Source: Planctomycetota bacterium (GTDB lineage: Bacteria; Planctomycetota; Planctomycetia; Pirellulales; Pirellulaceae). Taken from it: a stretch of 43,672 nt of DNA. Made by a program: the position numbers and the translations under genes. Shown here one piece after another: positions 7,491 through 15,307 of the stretch. The stretch is taken from the NCBI GenBank assembly GCA_024276655.1, contig JAJRWU010000246.1, positions 1 through 43,672 on the forward strand, written 5' to 3'. Below the pieces are notes generated by a model. It was given only the letters and a program-made list of their open reading frames with translations. It searched no databases and was not told the origin of the DNA. How positions within the stretch are numbered: position 1 is the stretch's first letter; the number at the start of each line of letters is the position of its first letter.

Positions 7491-8351
7491 GTGACCGCCA
7501 CCAAGCAACTCATTCGCGTGGGCCACAGCCCCGACCCCGACGACGCCTTCATGTTCTACGCCCTGGCCAAAGACAAAATCGATACCGGCGAATACCGGTT
7601 CGAGCATGAGTTGGTCGATATCGAGACGTTGAATCGCCGCGCCTTTGAGGGGGAGCTTGAGCTCACCGCGATCAGCTTGCATGCCTACGCGTATCTGTCC
7701 GATAAATACGCTATCTGCTCCAGCGGCGCCAGCATGGGCGACAAATACGGCCCGATGGTGGTGGCGCCCAAGGAGCTAACGCGCCAGCAACTGCGCGAAG
7801 CAACGATCGCCATTCCCGGCGAACTGACCACCGCCAACCTCGCCTTGAGAATGTGCCTCGGCTGCGAATTCAAACACGTGCTCGTTCCGTTCGACCAAAT
7901 CATCGAAGCCGTGGTGGCGGGTGAGTGGGAAGGCCAAACGCTCGACGCCGGGCTGATCATTCACGAAGGGCAACTCACCTACGCCGATTCCAACCTGCGG
8001 CTCATTCTCGACATGGGCCAGTGGTGGTTCGACGAAACCGGGCTGCCGCTGCCCTTGGGCGCCAACGGCATTCGCAAGGACCTCGGCGCCGAAACCATCG
8101 CCGAAGTGCATCGGCTATTGAAACAGAGCATTCAATACGGACTGGAGCATCGTGACGACGCCCTCGATTACGCCCAGGAATTCGGTCGCGGGCTCGACCG
8201 CGCCAAAGCCGATAAATTCGTGGGGATGTATGTCAACGACTGGACACTCGACTTCGGTCCTCGCGGACGGCAAGCCGTAACCGAACTGCTCGCCCGCGGC
8301 CACAAAGCCGGAGTGATTCCGAATTTGGTGATTCCTGAATTCGTTGGCTAG
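7491..8351 (+). CDS. mqnD: 1,4-dihydroxy-6-naphthoate synthase MqnD
   Basis: A 286-residue protein with a GTG start at 7491, supported by GAGG about 10 bp upstream. The length is normal for the family. The sequence carries the family's signature segments: VGHSPDPDDAFMFYAL near the N-terminus, AISLHAYAYL (about 61-70), GPMVV, IPGELTTANLALRM (about 105-118), the histidine-bearing GLIIHEGQLTYAD (about 155-167) and LPLPLGANGIR. MqnD cleaves cyclic dehypoxanthine futalosine to 1,4-dihydroxy-6-naphthoate in the futalosine route to menaquinone, in the cytoplasm. No other mqn gene is in the window, so it appears as an isolated pathway gene. This is among the surest functional calls here. Confidence 0.95.
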   Translation: MTATKQLIRVGHSPDPDDAFMFYALAKDKIDTGEYRFEHELVDIETLNRRAFEGELELTAISLHAYAYLSDKYAICSSGASMGDKYGPMVVAPKELTRQQLREATIAIPGELTTANLALRMCLGCEFKHVLVPFDQIIEAVVAGEWEGQTLDAGLIIHEGQLTYADSNLRLILDMGQWWFDETGLPLPLGANGIRKDLGAETIAEVHRLLKQSIQYGLEHRDDALDYAQEFGRGLDRAKADKFVGMYVNDWTLDFGPRGRQAVTELLARGHKAGVIPNLVIPEFVG

Positions 8352-8722
8352 GCGTTGCTCATTGCTCGAACGCTCGTAGGTTCCGGTGGTAAGGAATCGT
8401 CCTGAAATAACTTCCGTATTTCATCTCGGTCTGAGCGGGGTGATAGTCCTGGGTTATTCTCGCCAAAAACGCCGCGCAGATCAGCCGGAACGCGTTAGCG
8501 TCCGGTTCTCCGAGAATGCGGTAAACCGTGAGCTAGCGCTCATCGGCTGAGGGATCTTATTTCGGGACTGCCCCTTACCCGCACGTAGCGGGAGTCCGTG
8601 AGTTTTTTTGGGGGGGTTCCCGCCTGCGCGAGAATGACGGTGCGCGCGAAACCCGATTCGCACGCGAAGAAAGCGAAGGGAAAATAGAAACGGTTTGTTG
8701 AACAGCAAGCCGACAGCGGCGG
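8352..8722. repeat. Intergenic region with dispersed-repeat-like sequences
   Basis: 371 bp without a gene. Around 8489-8549 lies GCGTTAGCGTCCGGTT, then CCGTGAGCTAGCGCTCATCGG. The second contains a near-palindromic AGCTAGCGCT core and resembles intergenic repeats of planctomycete genomes. Around 8620-8645, TTCCCGCCTGCGCGAGAATG resembles the palindromic intergenic repeats seen in many bacteria. Only one copy of each is in this window, so repeat status rests on general familiarity. Convergent genes flank the region. Confidence 0.4.
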
Positions 8723-10891
8723 TCATTTTCGCTTTGCTGCATTGCGGCGTTGTTCCTGGCGAATTTGTTCGTCGCGAAGTTTATCGAGAAATTTCGCCAC
8801 TTTGTCATGAACATAGTTCGACTGCATGATCGTCAGTTGATTGGCGGCCGAAATTTGTATGCGGCCTGTTCCGCCCGCTCCCTCCCAAGTTCCCGGCTCG
8901 ACAGCCTTGGTAATTAAGTCCGCCATACTGCGGACAGGCCCGAAGTCGGCTACATTATTGTATGTCCGCTCGACAGAGCCATTTTTATAGGTAAATTCCG
9001 CCTTTGCCCGATGCGAGGCGCGGATTTCATAGAGGAATTCGTCCACTTTTTCATGGACGCGCTGCGTTTGGCGAATAATCAAGCGTGATGGATCTCCGGG
9101 GAATTCCATGGCCACGCCGTGGCCTCCCAGTTCCTCCCAGGTGTCCTGCTCCACCAATTGCGTGAGCATCTTCACGAGATCCTTGGCGGGAACAAAGTCG
9201 TCGCTTGAAGGCGACGTGTCGCTGGTGAAATAGATTCGCGTATCAAGTTGCTCCGCAGCCTCATCCGCCGAAGTAATCATTAGTACTTCATCGTGGATGG
9301 TGTAGGCAAGATCAAGCGGTTCGAGTATCAGGTGCAAGGCGGATCGCAGGCTGACATCGTCGAGAGACATCGTGATCGGCTCGTCCGTCGCGACGCCTAT
9401 TTCGTCCAGGGCGTTTCCATCAATTATAATAGAAATATTGTGTTCTTCGGAGATGAAATCGCAGGCGTCGCTGAGAGGCGTTTCGAGGAAGTCAAAGCCA
9501 CTCTTTTTATCGAGTTTCCTGTTAATCTCATTGGCCACACTACGGCTGTGGCCAGGAGCGGTAAGGCGGGCCTCGGCACCGCTTGCCGAAGTAATGACCA
9601 GCACTTCATCGCGGATGGTGAAGTCAAGATTGAGCGGTTCGAGTATCAGGTGCAAGGCCGATCGCAGGCTCATGCCAGAGACAGCCCGCGTGATCGCACT
9701 GTCCTTCGTGATACCCACTGTTTTCATGGATTTGATGTCAAACGCAATAGGAATATTGTGAAGTTCGGCGATGTAGCCGAAGGCTTCCTTGAGTGGTGTT
9801 AGCTTGAATTCAAGAACAGTCTGTTCATCGAGCGCACTCAAAATGTTTTTGACAGCCTCGCGAGTGGGTAAGCTACCGGTTACGGGCGGTTTGTTGGCGG
9901 CCCGCTGTTGTAGGCGAGCGGCGGCGGCTTTGGCCTCTGGAGTGGCGCCGAAGGGATCGTCGGCTTTCAAGACAACGGCTTTTTTGCCGCCTGCAACGCC
10001 GCCGCCTGCAACGTTACCCTCTTCCTGTGCGTAAACCAACACGCCGAGGCCGTAAACGCCGAACGCCGTGGCAAGTACGGCGGAAGCCGAAAGGGCGGTG
10101 AGTTTCCTGGCGAATAATGTCATCTCGGTAATCTCCGAAAGAGCCAATTGTTGCGAACCGCCGGCGGACGCCATTTCTCCGGCCGCTATTTCCCCGCGAG
10201 CAAACGCAATGCTCGCTTCGACGGTTGATTGAATCAGCGCCGGCGGAATACTTGCCGCCGCTACGTTTTGCCCCAAGCCGAGCAGCGCCGCGAAACAGGA
10301 AAGCGAAATACCGCGTTTGACCAACCGCCGCCGCAATTCGGCGCGGCCCCGTTTGAGGCGGCCATCCACCGCCGACGCGCTCAGGTGAAGTTGGTCGGCA
10401 ATTTCCTGATGGGTTCGATTTTCCAGGTAGTAGAGAATCAAGGCGGCTCGATATTTCTCGGGCAGCGCGTGCAGTTCTTCATCGACGGCGCGCTCATCGC
10501 CCCGCTTGCTCAAGCGTTCGAGAGGATCGGCTTCCGATGCTGCGTGGTCAATCAAGGGAATTTCTCGATATCGGTGTATTTTTCTGAAAGCCTTTACCGC
10601 CACCCGATAAGCCACGCCGTACAGCCAACTCGCCAGCGCCGCCCGCCGGCGAACTTTGGCCGCGTTGCGCGCCAGCACCATGAAGGTGGCTTGAAAGGCG
10701 TCTTCCTCGTCGTGTGGGTTGGCCAGCACGCGCCGGCAAACGCCCCACACCAGCGGGCCATGCCGCTGAACGATTTCCGCGAAGCAGGCTTCATCTTGCT
10801 CCACCGCAAAGCGGCGCACGAGTTCGCTGTCGGCGAGATCTTTCACCTTCGTCTCGCCGGGAGCGTCATTTTTTTGGGGGTCAACAAGCAT
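8723..10891 (-). CDS. ECF sigma factor fused via a TM segment to duplicated secretin-N-like domains
   Basis: A 722-residue protein with an ATG at 10891 preceded by AGGGGAG. Residues about 22-95 are sigma-70 region 2 (DAFQATFMVLARN, ASWLYGVAYRVA). Residues about 138-190 are region 4 (LPEKYRAALILYYLENRTHQEIA). A hydrophobic stretch at 264-288 should span the membrane. The rest, about 290-722, would then be extracytoplasmic. It holds two STN/secretin-N-like copies (about 359-436 and 466-543) sharing SLRSALHLILEPL and DEVL.ITSA. Two further related units follow (about 563-624 and 650-706: TWE..GG.G....., VH.KV..FL). A normal ECF factor is about 180-200 residues, so this is a membrane-tethered sigma factor with its own sensory tail. 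Release by proteolysis or signalling through the tail is inference. No separate anti-sigma gene lies beside it. Confidence 0.85.
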   Translation of the reverse strand: MLVDPQKNDAPGETKVKDLADSELVRRFAVEQDEACFAEIVQRHGPLVWGVCRRVLANPHDEEDAFQATFMVLARNAAKVRRRAALASWLYGVAYRVAVKAFRKIHRYREIPLIDHAASEADPLERLSKRGDERAVDEELHALPEKYRAALILYYLENRTHQEIADQLHLSASAVDGRLKRGRAELRRRLVKRGISLSCFAALLGLGQNVAAASIPPALIQSTVEASIAFARGEIAAGEMASAGGSQQLALSEITEMTLFARKLTALSASAVLATAFGVYGLGVLVYAQEEGNVAGGGVAGGKKAVVLKADDPFGATPEAKAAAARLQQRAANKPPVTGSLPTREAVKNILSALDEQTVLEFKLTPLKEAFGYIAELHNIPIAFDIKSMKTVGITKDSAITRAVSGMSLRSALHLILEPLNLDFTIRDEVLVITSASGAEARLTAPGHSRSVANEINRKLDKKSGFDFLETPLSDACDFISEEHNISIIIDGNALDEIGVATDEPITMSLDDVSLRSALHLILEPLDLAYTIHDEVLMITSADEAAEQLDTRIYFTSDTSPSSDDFVPAKDLVKMLTQLVEQDTWEELGGHGVAMEFPGDPSRLIIRQTQRVHEKVDEFLYEIRASHRAKAEFTYKNGSVERTYNNVADFGPVRSMADLITKAVEPGTWEGAGGTGRIQISAANQLTIMQSNYVHDKVAKFLDKLRDEQIRQEQRRNAAKRK
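9266..9670 (-). repeat. Intragenic duplication in the sigma-factor fusion gene
   Basis: Segments 9266-9352 and 9584-9670 encode the matching ends of the two secretin-N-like domains, 106 residues apart. They share long nearly identical DNA blocks, for example GCGGTTCGAGTATCAGGTGC in both. Identity at synonymous sites points to a recent duplication or gene conversion. Confidence 0.75.
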
Positions 10892-11266
10892 GGCTCCCCT
10901 AATAGTTCCGCTACAGCGACCGCTCGGGCGCTAATTCTGAAGAAATCTGAAAGTGACGCCGCCTTCACTCGTCGAATTGACAAACCCGCCGTCTAGACGC
11001 CAAAACCTTGGGCGTCCCCACATTATAAGGAAATCGAATGGCATGCGGCCAATAAGTACCGCTCGATAAATAACTGTCGCATTTGTGTAGCCATCGTCGC
11101 CAAACGCTGGGTGAGCGGTGAACCATCCCACGCTCTGGCGAGCATGGCTACGACACTAATTTTCCGCTCGATGCTAAGCGGAAACGCCGGCTGGAATTTG
11201 CGGCCCCATTGGGCCTACGGAGCAACTGCCGCTGGTGGCGCGTTTGTTAAACGCCTTGGAGCGGAG
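10892..11266. other. Intergenic region upstream of the sigma-factor fusion
   Basis: 375 bp holding the promoter region of the minus-strand sigma gene and the 64-bp repeat at 11111-11174. No gene is seen. Confidence 0.4.
11111..11174 (-). repeat. 64-bp dispersed repeat, copy 1
   Basis: This matches the reverse complement of 15308-15371 at 62 of 64 positions. It contains an imperfect stem around CCACGCTCTGGCGAGCATGG and lies downstream of the MlaF-MlaE gene cluster's end region and upstream of the sigma gene. Confidence 0.8.
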
Positions 11267-12946
11267 TCAGCTGGATTTGGCAATATCGAATTCCCAAAAG
11301 GCGAATACGAAATGCACCACCAGCACCAACAGCGTGGCCCACAGAATGGTGGTCGTGATGCCTCGGCTGACATCGCGGCTGCTCTTTTTTTCCGCCATGC
11401 CCCGATGATACGCCACCAGCGCGATTCCCGTCGCACAGACCAGCGTTTTGGCCAGCAACCACCCGGTTCCGCTGAAAAACCATCCGTCCGATTGCCGCAG
11501 CATACGATGGAAATGATGCTGCCAAAATGCGGGGCCGTGCGTGGCGTGCGTGGCGGTGAACACCACTAGGCTTGTCGCCTCGGCGGCGAGATATCCAACA
11601 GCCAACAGCAGCGGGGCGCCTAATAAAAATGCGTACAAGATTGGCGTGAGTAGATACCGATGCGGCGGCGCGGCGAATGTGCGCAGGGCGTCGGTCTGGC
11701 GCGAATACACCTTGCCGCCTACGTCGGAAGCCACGGCCGCGCCGCAGCGGGCGGCGATCAGAATGGTGATCAAAATCGGGGCCAGCACCCGGTAAAGCGC
11801 GAAGCCGATCGATTGCAACAATTCCTCCAGCAGCAGTGGCTCGGTGTAGTTGGCGTAAGGCAGGAAATGAAAGGTGAAATAGGTCGACACGAATCCTAAA
11901 ATGGCGCCGGCAATCGCGATGTACAACCAAGCCGAAGGGCCCGCCACCAAATTCAAATAGTGCAAGAGAAAACGTAGGCCCCATTTCCAGCGTTTCCAAA
12001 TTGGCAGCAGGCGCAGCGGCAACGCCGCCGTTTCCTCCACCGCTCGCGACGTGCCGATGAGCAGTTTATCGAGCGCCTCTTGCAGCTTGTTGACGGCTCG
12101 CCGCGGCCAAAATTCCATGCCGCCGGTATCGGGCGGTTCGGGAAGATCGGGCGGCTGTAACTGTTTGTGCAACGCCGGCCACTGGCTGGGCGGCGATTCT
12201 CGCAACGACTTTGTTTCGGGGTCGACCAGATAGATGCGGTCGGCGATTGGCGCCAGCGATGCATAGTCGTGCGTGACGATGATCGAAATGGCGGGGTGCG
12301 AATCATGCGTGCGTTTGATCAGCGCCGCGACGTTGCGTCCGGTGGCTGGGTCGAGCCCCGACGTGGGTTCATCATACAGGAGCACGTCGGGCCGATAGCT
12401 CAGTGTGCGGGCAATCGCCAGACGCTGCTTCTGACCCCCGCTAAGATGTGCGATGGGCGTGTGGCGAGGCACGTTCAATTCCGCCAAAATCGCCAAGACA
12501 TCGTCGGCTGCGGCTTTGTTTGTGGAACGCCCGCCTGTTGAACGGCCGCCTGTGGAACGGCTGCGCGGCGGGCGATGATCGCGCGCGAAACGCACGTTGT
12601 CTTGCGGAGAGAGTTCGTCGAAGAGAGCAAATTCTTGAAACACGACGCCCACCGAATCGCCGCTCGTACGTAGAACGATGTCGTCTTCGCCGATCAACAC
12701 CGACCCCGAAATATTGAATCCGGAACGTGCATTGTGAATAAGTCCGGCCAAGATCCCCAACAATACCGATTTCCCCACGCCGCTGGAGCCGACGATCAAG
12801 GAGATTTCACCCGGCCGAAAATCCGCCGCCGCATGATCGAACAGCACCCGCCCGTCAACGTCGACATGCAAGCCGCGAATACGAACAGCGGCGCCCTGTT
12901 CCTTTTTCTCGGGAGCGTGATCGTCGTTAAACGAAAAATGTGCCAT
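11267..12946 (-). CDS. Single-chain MlaF-MlaE-type lipid ABC transporter (ATPase fused to permease)
   Basis: A 559-residue protein. The ATG at 12944-12946 is chosen because homology to ABC ATPases begins just after it; a 92-codon upstream extension overlaps the DUF1501 gene and is Arg-rich noise. ATPase domain: about 20-250, with Walker A GSSGVGKS (53-60), signature [10 protein letters not shown] (168-177), Walker [13 protein letters not shown] (188-199) and H-loop THD. A repeated RSTGG insert sits between the Q-loop and the signature (129-142). Permease domain: about 300-559, MlaE-like, with several hydrophobic helices and the conserved [17 protein letters not shown] (395-411). MlaFE normally consists of two polypeptides that move phospholipids between inner and outer membranes; here both are one chain. 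No MlaD-like substrate-binding gene is adjacent. The function as a lipid transporter follows from the family. Confidence 0.9.
12518..12562 (-). repeat. 15-bp tandem repeat (RSTGG)3 in the ABC ATPase domain
   Basis: Three 15-bp units, each close to TGTGGAACGCCCGCC, encode [15 protein letters not shown]. Such in-frame microduplications can vary in copy number between strains. Confidence 0.7.
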
Positions 12947-12987
12947 TTTCAACCGTGCGCAGTATAACGCGGAACCGGAAACGAGCC

Positions 12988-14367
12988 TTAAACCAATTCT
13001 CGGATCGGCGTTCCGTACGGAAGAATCGTGGTTGGCCGGCCGCTGAGGTCGGCGAAAGGAATATTCTGATCGATCCCCAAGTGGCGGTAGACCGTCGATA
13101 ACAAATCGTTGGGATCGAGCTTGCGGTCTTTGGCGTAGGCGCCTTTGTCGGTTGTGGAGCCGATCACCTGCCCCATGCGCATGCCGCCGCCGGAAACCAG
13201 CACCGACATCGCACCGGGCCAATGGTCGCGACCGGGCTGCATCACTTTGGAGCCGGTGCCCTTCTGAGGATTGATACGCGGCGAGCGGCCAAATTCACCC
13301 GACACAATCAGCATTACTTTTTTGTCCAACCCGCGTTGGTAAATATCTTCGATCAAGGCCGATACCGCTCGATCAAATGCGGGCAGGCGAGCACGTGCGT
13401 CGACGAAAAGGTGGCCGTTGACGGCGTGTATGTCCCAATTCCCGATAGCGCCGGGAATGACCGGGTTTTGCATTTGCATGGTGACAAAACTCGCGCCTGC
13501 TTCAACCAACCTCCGGGCCAGCAACGCGCGTTGCCCCCACTTGTGGCGTCCATAGCGTTGGCGCGTTTTTTCGTCTTCGAGCGATAAGTCGAACGCTTTG
13601 AGCGCCCGGTCGCTGGTGAGCAGATCGACCGCCTTGCGGTTGAATTTGTCGAGCGAATCCATGGAATCGGTGCGTTCGATATCTCGGCGGCAGTTGTCGA
13701 ATGATTCGAGCAGTTGCAAACGATCATCGAGTCGACCGGCCAATTGCGGCGCCAACGAGAGGTTGGGCACTTTGAAGCTGTCTAGGTTTGGGTCTCCTCC
13801 GACCACGAACGGCAGGCACGATTCGCCCAGGTACGCGCTGCCGCCGCCGTACACGCGGGGCTGGTTGCCGATGTAGTTCGGCAGCCCGACGTTACGATCT
13901 TGCCGCACGCGCGCCACGATCGGACCAATCAGCGGGTATTGGGCCAGCGGGTCGAGCAGCCGCTTCGGTTTTTGACCGGAAAGAAATCGGCCGGCGCCCG
14001 CCGCATGGTTGGCGAAACCGTGGGAAATCGAACGAATGAGCGTGAATTTATCGGCCACCTTGGCGTGCAGCGGCAGTAATTCGCAAATGTCCATTCCCGG
14101 AACATTCGTTGAAATCGGCAACATTTCGCCCCGGTAATCGGCGGGCGCGTCGGGTTTGAGGTCGTAGGTTTCCATGTGGCTGGGACCGCCCTGCAGCCAA
14201 ATCAGAATAACCGACGTATCGGGCGAGGCGTGCTTCGAGGCGGCGCGGGCCTGCTCCCGGAAACGAAGTAGGTCGCCCAAACCCATGCCGCCCAGCGCCA
14301 AGGCGCCTGCTTGCAGAAAGCTGCGGCGAGAAGTTGTCGCGGCGAGTTGGATCGAAGAGTTTGACAT
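12988..14367 (-). CDS. DUF1501 Tat-exported protein
   Basis: A 459-residue protein. The ATG at 14365-14367 lies 9 bp after AGGAG; another in-frame ATG at 14376 is too close to that site. The N-terminus has a twin-arginine signal (SRRSFLQAGALALGGMGLGD). The body matches DUF1501, an alkaline-phosphatase/sulfatase-superfamily-related fold that is abundant in planctomycetes: LIWLQGGPSHMETYDLKP early, GESCLPFVVGG mid-protein, ARRLVEAGASFVTM, then VSGEFGRSP and GRDHWPGAMSVLVSGGG near the C-terminus. Its substrate and reaction are not established. It lacks a partner DUF1549/DUF1553 gene here, unlike the two other DUF1501 genes of the window. It is transcribed in the same direction as the MlaF-MlaE gene, 41 bp upstream of it. 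Confidence 0.9.
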   Translation of the reverse strand: MSNSSIQLAATTSRRSFLQAGALALGGMGLGDLLRFREQARAASKHASPDTSVILIWLQGGPSHMETYDLKPDAPADYRGEMLPISTNVPGMDICELLPLHAKVADKFTLIRSISHGFANHAAGAGRFLSGQKPKRLLDPLAQYPLIGPIVARVRQDRNVGLPNYIGNQPRVYGGGSAYLGESCLPFVVGGDPNLDSFKVPNLSLAPQLAGRLDDRLQLLESFDNCRRDIERTDSMDSLDKFNRKAVDLLTSDRALKAFDLSLEDEKTRQRYGRHKWGQRALLARRLVEAGASFVTMQMQNPVIPGAIGNWDIHAVNGHLFVDARARLPAFDRAVSALIEDIYQRGLDKKVMLIVSGEFGRSPRINPQKGTGSKVMQPGRDHWPGAMSVLVSGGGMRMGQVIGSTTDKGAYAKDRKLDPNDLLSTVYRHLGIDQNIPFADLSGRPTTILPYGTPIRELV

Positions 14368-14959
14368 GTCATGCATCTCCTAAAAGCCACTGCGTCTTTG
14401 GCGCTTTGTCTCGACCGCTCTCTTGTCTCGACGGGCCCTCTTGTCTCGACGGTTCGTCGGAACGCAGGCATACCCTTGCAGTGAAACAATTCCTTGTTTT
14501 CTTTCCGGCGCCGCCGGCAAGGAAAATGGGCGCCGTAAGCAAGGGGGACGAATATCGACCCGGCACACGAGGCAGGAGGGTTTGAGGTAGGACCAATAAC
14601 AGCGGGAAACTCATTCGCGTGCGTCTGAAGTTCGCGGTTGCATTGTAGCAAAAAACTAAGCGGGCGGCAAAAAACAAAACCTCGCCCGAGATAATTCGGG
14701 TCCAGCCAGATTGAAAGCGAGAATAGTCGCACAGATTGACGACAGAATGGCATCAATCGGACCACATCTCTAAACCAAGGCGACCAATCTCCTGTTGCCA
14801 AGGAATCCTTAACGCGTTTATATCACACGACTTGCGAAACATGCCCTTGAAACCGGCGCAATATTTGCACTAAAACTAAGGCGACACGTTGGCTCGAAGA
14901 AGAGGCAATGATTGTTTTTTGACCCAGGTTTGCCCAGTTTGATACAAGGAGAATTCAAA
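14368..14959. other. Divergent intergenic region with an 18-bp tandem repeat
   Basis: 592 bp between the divergent DUF1501 gene and the exported repeat protein. Three copies of TTGTCTCGAC stand at 14406, 14423 and 14441 (period 17-18 bp), just upstream of the DUF1501 start on its promoter side. A possible promoter for the plus-strand gene is TTGAAA at 14847-14852, 17 bp before CTAAAA, but the -10 match is poor. No gene is seen in the rest. Confidence 0.45.
14406..14450. repeat. Three-copy short tandem repeat near the DUF1501 promoter
   Basis: The 10-mer TTGTCTCGAC occurs at 14406, 14423 and 14441 with similar CT-rich spacers. It could be regulatory or simple slippage. Confidence 0.6.
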
Positions 14960-15307
14960 ATGAAGACTCTCACACTCGTCATGGCGGCCGTCGTCTGCTT
15001 CGCATTCATTTCACCCGCCATGGCCGGACGCGGCCATCGCCGCAGGGCGCATCGAGGCGTTTATCTCCAGACGCAGGCCTACTACGCGCCAACACACCGT
15101 TATTACCCCTCCTATTCCCACGGCTACCATCACGGTTATGGCGGTTACGGTCACGGTTATGGACACGGTTATGGACACGGCTATGGACACGGCTATGGAC
15201 ACGGCTATGGCGGCTATGGACACGGCTATGGACACGGCTATGGCGGCTACGGACACGGCGGTTTCGACTACCACGGTCGAAACTTTTCGCTCCACCTCGG
15301 CTACTAA
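14960..15307 (+). CDS. Exported Gly/Tyr/His tandem-repeat protein
   Basis: A 115-residue protein. The ATG at 14960 follows AAGGAG, and a textbook signal peptide (MKTLTLVMAAVVCFAFISPAMA) supports it. After an Arg/His-rich stretch comes a run of GYGHGYGH and GYGGYGHG units (about residues 55-100), coded by 12-bp repeats such as GGTTATGGACAC between about 15138 and 15260. The end, FDYHGRNFSLHLGY, is non-repetitive and resembles the end of the protein at 4948-5451. The histidines could bind metal, and the Tyr/Gly pattern suggests a disordered, perhaps cell-surface or matrix polypeptide. Both are inference. The stop codon is followed immediately by a 64-bp dispersed repeat. Confidence 0.85.
   Translation: MKTLTLVMAAVVCFAFISPAMAGRGHRRRAHRGVYLQTQAYYAPTHRYYPSYSHGYHHGYGGYGHGYGHGYGHGYGHGYGHGYGGYGHGYGHGYGGYGHGGFDYHGRNFSLHLGY

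Follow-up and report, generated by a model that had tools for sequence, protein, structure and literature searches.

Planctomycetes carry many extracytoplasmic function (ECF) sigma factors with long C-terminal extensions, the control of which is largely open. In the available text of PMC8999054, 15 of 26 ECF groups with extensions are given as unstudied. The window analyzed here, a 43,672-nucleotide stretch from a Planctomycetota bacterium of the family Pirellulaceae (contig JAJRWU010000246.1 of assembly GCA_024276655.1), holds one such gene on its minus strand at positions 8723-10891, a 722-amino-acid (aa) open frame with an ATG start. The gene encodes an ECF sigma factor, a linker, one transmembrane (TM) segment, and a tail of STN and secretin N1-like units, and it contains a second, internal translation start directly ahead of the TM segment. 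The features of its front end and of the internal start are as follows.

8723..10891, minus strand: full-length gene, ECF sigma, linker, TM, STN-STN-N1-N1, 722 aa (open frame; Pfam)
10894..10900, minus strand: AGGGGAG, Shine-Dalgarno of the upstream (sigma) start, 2 nt ahead of the ATG (sequence; duplex energy -5.2)
10577..10774, minus strand: sigma region 2, residues 40-105 (PF04542, Sigma70_r2, 44.6 bits, above cut-off)
10334..10492, minus strand: sigma region 4, residues 134-186 (PF08281, Sigma70_r4_2, 52.8 bits, above cut-off)
10124..10333, minus strand: cytoplasmic linker, residues 187-256, about 70 residues, predicted helical (model of the sigma-linker-TM region, pLDDT, the predicted local distance difference test score, 90.6)
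10133..10136, minus strand: internal Shine-Dalgarno core GGAG, 9 nt ahead of the internal ATG (sequence, duplex energy -6.6; class-wide tests below)
10121..10123, minus strand: internal start codon ATG, Met257 (class-wide counts below)
8723..10123, minus strand: nested in-frame open reading frame (ORF), 466 aa, predicted signal peptide plus STN-STN-N1-N1, stop codon common with the full gene
10028..10123, minus strand: TM segment or predicted signal peptide MTLFARKLTALSASAVLATAFGVYGLGVLVYA, with a possible signal peptidase I site after Ala288 (hydrophobicity; site by inspection only)

Domain organization and topology

Sigma regions 2 and 4, which the preliminary description had seen in one chain, are both matched above the Pfam cut-offs. 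The protein also matches TIGR02937 (sigma70-ECF, 87.6 bits), and no region-3 family is listed by Pfam, the arrangement of an ECF (group IV sigma-70) factor. The TM segment sought in residues 255-295 is likewise predicted, as the single hydrophobic segment after the sigma domain at about residues 268-286 (Kyte-Doolittle 19-mer mean 1.76). It has arginine and lysine before it and two glutamates after it, which fits a topology with the sigma factor inside and the tail outside.

A frameshift or two-gene artefact was considered and rejected, as the frame is single both in the window gene and in a same-genus relative (L027), 82% identical to the window protein over residues 1-443. Sigma-TM-STN genes in one frame also occur in other genera (L028, L031, L038, L042, L046), and a frameshift joining two genes is therefore unlikely; the architecture does recur across planctomycetes.

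In Pfam matches up to E 1, the linker contains no FecR or other anti-sigma family and the extension no zinc-finger (ZAS) anti-sigma domain, and the idea of a hidden anti-sigma domain in the linker was dropped, there being no family match in Pfam. When the sigma-linker-TM model is aligned whole to ECF factors bound by anti-sigma factors, it deviates by 6.7 Å over 153 residues from CnrH-CnrY and by 8.2-8.4 Å over 155-156 residues from SigW-RsiW, with worse fits to AlgU-MucA (11.5 Å) and BldN-RsbN (13.1 Å), compared with 22.5-28.4 Å for ECF factors bound to RNA polymerase. Single-chain models often turn out compact, and the model gives only a hint that the linker might hold the sigma domain closed.

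A conserved internal translation start

The internal start reads TTTCGGAGATTACCGAG-ATG, and its duplex energy exceeds in strength that of the AGGGGAG ahead of the upstream start (-6.6 vs -5.2). The same-genus relative keeps it, with GGAG and ATG identical and two base changes between them. Translation from this codon would produce, in order, MTLFARK, a hydrophobic core, VYA, QEEG, and the tail. The nested product thereby has two features of a Sec signal peptide, an n-region free of acidic residues and a hydrophobic core.

The search for relatives covered 60 relatives and then 199 family genomes, and the internal start was assessed in two sets of sigma ORFs. Set 1 was fetched by choosing matches with long open frames and comprised 109 distinct sigma ORFs, from which 12 short-tailed members and 17 with other architectures were set aside after inspecting hydrophobicity, leaving 80. 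Set 2 came from 110 further loci; 7 of 114 ORFs with tails shorter than 150 aa were dropped to give 107, and 6 of these without a hydrophobic segment were removed to give 101. Profile A1 was built from ATG-bearing members, so loci found with it are slightly biased, and other loci were retrieved with a pattern for sigma region 2. One member (L194) that looks identical to another (L058) was kept in set 2.

Methionine stands just before the TM segment at one column in 58 of the 80 members of set 1 and within -4 to +7 in 75 of them. The consensus upstream of it is A-G-G-A-R at -13 to -9, and the duplex energy with the 16S tail has a median of -5.7, compared with -1.3 for 329 in-frame ATGs located elsewhere in these genes. 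By eye, two members have GTG (L072) or TTG (L070) at this spot, each behind a Shine-Dalgarno-like sequence. An in-frame ATG lies beside the hydrophobic segment in 89/101 members of set 2, a count that still holds three set-1 repeats (L163, L164, and L193) removed for the count split by origin. The best energies in this set have a median of -7.5 vs a mean of -3.1 for 303 control ATGs, a comparison of the best ATG per window with single control ATGs that favors an internal start and is corrected by like-for-like windows. With such windows, an ATG with an energy of -4 or lower is present in 63 of 70 ORFs from named genomes, compared with 13.8% of 2800 random windows of the same genes, and in 19 of 28 ORFs from other phylum genomes, compared with 16.1% of 1120 random windows. 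Records of Singulisphaera, Zavarzinella, Limnoglobus, Aquisphaera, Gemmata, and Aeoliella are among the members with the internal start. Ordinary starts are weaker: the median is -2.9 for other genes of the retrieved loci (95 unambiguous starts, 36% at -4 or lower) and likewise for the upstream starts of the sigma genes themselves (75 starts, 35%).

Given a conserved Shine-Dalgarno sequence and ATG ahead of the TM segment, the gene should also make the tail alone. On this sequence evidence, the window gene probably encodes two in-frame products with a common stop, a tethered ECF sigma factor and an exported tail. The preliminary description had put sigma factor and sensor on one chain; a predicted extracytoplasmic STN module is indeed joined to the sigma factor via a single TM segment, but the internal start had been overlooked. 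Of 161 nested products, 129 carry a net positive charge in their first ten residues and none a net negative one; signal peptides show this pattern, although the positive-inside rule would predict the same.

Shine-Dalgarno-like sequences can pause ribosomes, and the one described here lies directly ahead of the hydrophobic segment, where a pause might serve TM insertion without any initiation. Such pausing needs no nearby ATG, yet the ATG is present in 89/101 members of set 2 and in just 35-38% of random 27-codon windows. A contrast group of 14 of the 17 ORFs set aside from set 1 points the same way, since only 4 of them have an ATG with an energy of -4 or lower in the same window, at -13 to -19 from the core and thus farther than in the class. 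Pausing alone is accordingly a very improbable account. This contrast group (L130-L138, L140-L142, L145, and L112) is a distinct set of planctomycete sigma ORFs with other, often multi-TM, extensions, most of them lacking the internal Shine-Dalgarno sequence and ATG beside the TM segment.

Selection on the nucleotide sequence

The nucleotide sequence itself is conserved at the internal start, and the pattern across members points to selection on the DNA, because 38 distinct peptides encode the core, which occurs in each of the three codon phases (92, 34, and 8 cases), and synonymous codons are best kept at -6 and -5. A Shine-Dalgarno core of at least 4 nt precedes 134 of 161 internal starts, compared with 22 of the 329 control ATGs of set 1. 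Of 42 glycines at codon -4, 37 use GGA, whereas general codon use in these genes predicts 10.1, and at codon -5 an A occupies the third position in 43 of 67 cases, with 25.5 expected. Over 456 member pairs, which overlap and are not independent, codon identity at identical amino acids is 0.79 at -6 and 0.78 at -5, compared with 0.42 outside -6 to -3. The tests of codon choice and codon conservation were added after a synonymous-shuffle test. The site thus combines a conserved Shine-Dalgarno sequence with a start codon under apparent nucleotide-level selection, as in an in-frame internal start.

These results also bear on a protein motif, LxxGxxxxM, whose leucine, glycine, and methionine (61, 59, and 58 of 80) are the best-kept late-linker columns in set 1. 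The motif might be kept ahead of the TM segment for sigma binding or membrane docking, the DNA pattern being secondary; the GGA bias, the variety of peptides and phases encoding the core, and the peak of codon conservation make this scarcely probable.

Another explanation, close to the preliminary description's view of an envelope event acting directly on the sigma domain, is that only the full-length protein matters. It would be a membrane sigma factor in one piece, joined to its periplasmic STN sensor and freed by regulated proteolysis, and the internal start would be unused or left over from an old two-gene operon that has fused. The frame is continuous in the members kept, 12 of the 101 members of set 2 lack an internal ATG, and the tethered factors IutY and ECF52 are described as shown or thought to be activated by proteolysis in the available text of PMC8999054. 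A leftover should decay, yet the internal Shine-Dalgarno sequence is stronger than that at ordinary starts, two of its codons are the best-kept synonymous codons in the region, and it persists with unrelated tails. A full-length product alone is therefore considered unlikely.

Several observations weigh against two products. No internal ATG was found in 12/101 members of set 2, and an examination of these 12 for GTG or TTG substitutes gave none that was convincing; f31 is a mixed family, and the internal start is missing from single loci of f84, f97, and f67, so the second product is not universal. Codons -4 (0.53) and -3 (0.34) are not kept above background to the degree of -6 and -5. Taken gene by gene, the synonymous-shuffle energy test gives weak results (median p 0.24, with 37% under 0.2) and is significant only when combined (p 4e-6), and since the members are related, p-values overstate their independence. 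The signal peptidase I motif is barely enriched, with AxA at 0.47 vs 0.42 in shuffled sequences and [AVST]xA at 0.80 vs 0.76; an extended motif devised for this analysis reaches 0.31 vs 0.14. The nested product could consequently stay anchored, and the motif was discarded as decisive evidence, being too weak against shuffles.

A planctomycete class with differing tails

As judged from sequence comparisons, the architecture in the window is one instance of a planctomycete class in which a common sigma-linker-TM front end is joined to differing tails. Tails recognized by eye include EF-hand-like, discoidin-like, thioredoxin-like, peptidoglycan-binding-like, and SLBB-like forms, with a Pfam result only for the EF-hand of one relative (L029). 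Since the tails vary so widely behind a common front end, it appears that the outside domain can be exchanged freely. Relatives with such tails include, among others, L029, L033, L034, L037, L039, and L041.

The tail of the window protein shares one single-linkage BLAST cluster with 74 of 161 tails. Alignment A2 contains 61 of these 74, with 13 left out, and Pfam identifies STN in 16, FecR_C in 2, and Secretin_N in 1 of the 61. The 87 non-STN tails include 6 with WD40 (PF00400).

At a threshold of 1e-15, 367 of 392 phylum genomes contain a match to a front-end profile, although these matches include plain sigma factors with short frames. Among the matches listed that reach at least position 260 of the 279-position profile, no stop was seen except in two rows of genome G535. 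Those two class members, G535:C63 and G535:C224, each have one in-frame TAA in the sigma-linker-TM region.

Structure of the STN and N1-like tail

The tail of the window protein consists of four units.

9575..9829, minus strand: STN unit 1, residues 355-439 (fold; Pfam STN 21.3 bits, below the cut-off of 28.4)
9254..9511, minus strand: STN unit 2, residues 461-546 (fold; 46% identical to STN unit 1)
9002..9250, minus strand: N1-like unit 1, residues 548-630 (fold; GspD, Z 7.4 over 65 residues)
8747..9001, minus strand: N1-like unit 2, residues 631-715 (37% identical to N1-like unit 1 over 60 residues; low model confidence)

Pfam matches in this region are weak, with STN at residues 399-435 and, weaker still, Secretin_N at residues 567-619 (12.5 bits, cut-off 28.2). 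A model of residues 257-722 from the 61-sequence alignment (mean pLDDT 78, predicted template modeling score 0.54) resolves both STN units with confidence, along with one N1-like fold. Unit 4, with pLDDT under 50 at model positions 385-435, and the stretch ahead of unit 1 are partly uncertain. The earlier proposal of two STN-like copies followed by two further related units agrees with the model, the identity between the STN copies, and that between units 3 and 4, whereas the fold proposed for the C-terminal half is upheld for three units and partly of low confidence for the fourth. The STN duplication is real because the copies are 46% identical in protein (45/97) and 71% in DNA over 248 nt.

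The best solved matches of STN unit 2 are the C-terminal domains of a putative FecR-type anti-sigma factor (4m0h/4m0n; Z 10.3, 1.6-1.8 Å, 73-74 residues), followed by PupR (6ovk, Z 9.0) and the secretin N0 domains of PilQ, GspD, and EscC. The N1 match is weaker than the N0 match, as model positions 292-373 reach only the Z of 7.4 with GspD. Matches to the tail fold at Z 8-9.5 also come from baseplate and spike proteins, both of phages and of contractile injection systems; the small fold is thus common to many proteins, and no function can be read from it. Pfam finds no secretin channel domain (PF00263) in the window protein and, up to E 1, no plug or beta-barrel after the STN units, the chain ending after the N1-like units. 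A secretin with an STN-like match plus PF00263 is encoded elsewhere in the same genome (L153).

The same-genus relative (L027 = L122, G001:C350) has one STN and one N1 unit, compared with two of each in the window protein. By eye, the front half of its STN unit resembles the window's first copy and the back half the second, and because of this single hybrid STN unit and one N1 unit, the repeat number seems to expand and contract, as if by recombination between repeats. A 1434-aa protein with a VWA domain (L152:3475-7776, plus strand; G000:C121) includes a segment with 50% identity to residues 455-558, the second STN region, and similar long frames matching that region recur in many relatives.

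Two paralogues of the tail in the same genome (L156 and L158) are separate ORFs whose N-termini look by eye like signal peptides. Together with the constancy of the front end and the diversity of the tails, such paralogues would suit a gene that serves mainly to produce an exported STN protein, with the sigma factor fused to it acting as an autoregulator that only tunes expression and the tail sensing nothing. That account leaves unexplained why sigma factor and tail are fused in frame instead of co-transcribed, and its probability is put at very little, the lowest of the alternatives.

Genomic neighborhood

No anti-sigma gene was recognized among the nearby ORFs tested, which encode menaquinone biosynthesis (VitK2_biosynth), an ABC/MlaE permease, and DUF1501, in agreement with the preliminary description, and a TonB-dependent transducer gene was likewise missing from them. 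Across 34 loci of the STN-type gene, the largest flanking cluster of ORFs of at least 100 aa placed outside the sigma gene covers 6 loci; three larger clusters (21, 9, and 7 loci) run antisense inside the sigma gene, as assessed from a single example of each. A promoter scan of positions 8300-11300 returned no minus-strand site.

The ORF at 11267-13222 (minus strand) joins an ABC ATPase and an MlaE-type permease in one frame (PF00005 plus PF02405), and with its listed start its 5′ end overlaps the DUF1501 gene at 12988-14376. A 131-aa ORF at 14912-15307 (plus strand) carries glycine-, histidine-, and tyrosine-rich GHGYGHGY repeats after an apparent signal peptide.

A proposed mechanism

Translation from the upstream start would give a membrane-tethered ECF sigma factor, with the sigma domain in the cytoplasm, one TM helix, and STN-STN-N1-N1 outside. 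The strong internal Shine-Dalgarno sequence and ATG would give the outside module alone, exported as the TM segment becomes an N-terminal signal peptide.

STN domains bind each other in secretins. Association between free and tethered tails might then control sigma release, a tentative and rather doubtful mechanism that draws on analogy. The two tails would associate through STN/N1 surfaces, in the manner of the STN domains of secretins and of FoxA-FoxR, and the complex would keep the sigma factor at the membrane. An envelope event that strips or titrates the free tail, or blocks its export, would expose the tethered copy, which would be cut by a periplasmic and then an intramembrane protease to release the sigma factor. 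Alternatively, within the same frame, signal peptidase might also cut the long form and leave a tailless tethered sigma factor. According to the available portion of PMC11637429, the free STN domain of FoxA binds that of FoxR and protects FoxR from proteolysis, and in that of PMC9430671, the full-length and C-terminal polypeptides of one endolysin gene form a 1:5 complex.

The internal start is found with unrelated tails, which suggests a general device, the joint synthesis of a membrane sigma receptor and a soluble form of its sensor domain. It is possible, though somewhat short of probable, that Planctomycetota have a large ECF family of such two-in-one genes, each giving a tethered receptor and a free sensor copy whose ratio or assembly would be the signal, with swappable tails and no need for an anti-sigma factor. 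By extrapolation, this family would number hundreds to thousands. There is separate precedent for tethered ECF sigma factors, for planctomycete sigma factors with WD40 tails, and for in-frame internal starts, and in the open-licence literature no report of internal starts in planctomycete sigma genes was recognized.

The findings suggest that annotation of a single product would overlook a group of exported proteins and that extensions throughout this class, those with WD40 among them, would face outward. If two products are made, one gene would supply both the receptor and the soluble sensor of a sigma pathway, and the conserved internal start is a concrete handle on the control of planctomycete ECF sigma extensions.

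Comparison with known systems

Among the closest known systems is IutY (ECF243) of Pseudomonas putida, a sigma factor fused to a membrane anti-sigma factor, which like the window gene has sigma, TM, and periplasmic regions in one chain and no separate anti-sigma factor. Its tethered sigma factor is released by proteolysis, as given in the available text of PMC8999054. The tail of the window protein matches the STN-fold C-terminal region of FecR-type anti-sigma factors (4m0h/4m0n and 6ovk), IutY itself not being among the structures compared. Unlike IutY, the window gene has no recognized FecR anti-sigma domain in its linker and no transducer among the nearby ORFs tested, and it adds repeated STN and N1 units and an internal translation start.

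The actinobacterial groups ECF52 (SCO4117), ECF48, and ECF53 also have C-terminal extensions with a TM segment and an extracytoplasmic region, and the same text of PMC8999054 proposes proteolytic activation for these tethered sigma factors. The window gene differs in its tail, in its internal start, and in having no recognized zinc-finger anti-sigma domain. WD40 propellers occur both in planctomycete WD40-tailed ECF factors and in 6 of the 87 non-STN tails of the class. The available text of PMC8567305 counts WD40 sigma factors among predicted cytoplasmic proteins; in contrast, tails of the present class follow a TM or signal segment, and their WD40 domains should thus be extracytoplasmic.

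In FoxA-FoxR and other Fec-type signaling, an STN fold is likewise tied to a sigma pathway, but the sigma factor, anti-sigma factor, and outer-membrane receptor are separate, whereas the present system has one gene and no recognized anti-sigma factor. TonB-dependent transducers carry a plug and beta-barrel after STN that the tail described here lacks. Secretins share with it the N0 (STN) and N1 domains, the N1 likeness being weaker and the Pfam matches below cut-off, and differ by the channel domain PF00263, which is absent here. Two-polypeptide phage endolysins use the same coding device, an in-frame internal start with a common stop, and their products can assemble, as reported in the available text of PMC9430671. 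Those proteins are cell-wall enzymes, whereas the internal start in the window gene would turn a membrane anchor into a signal peptide.

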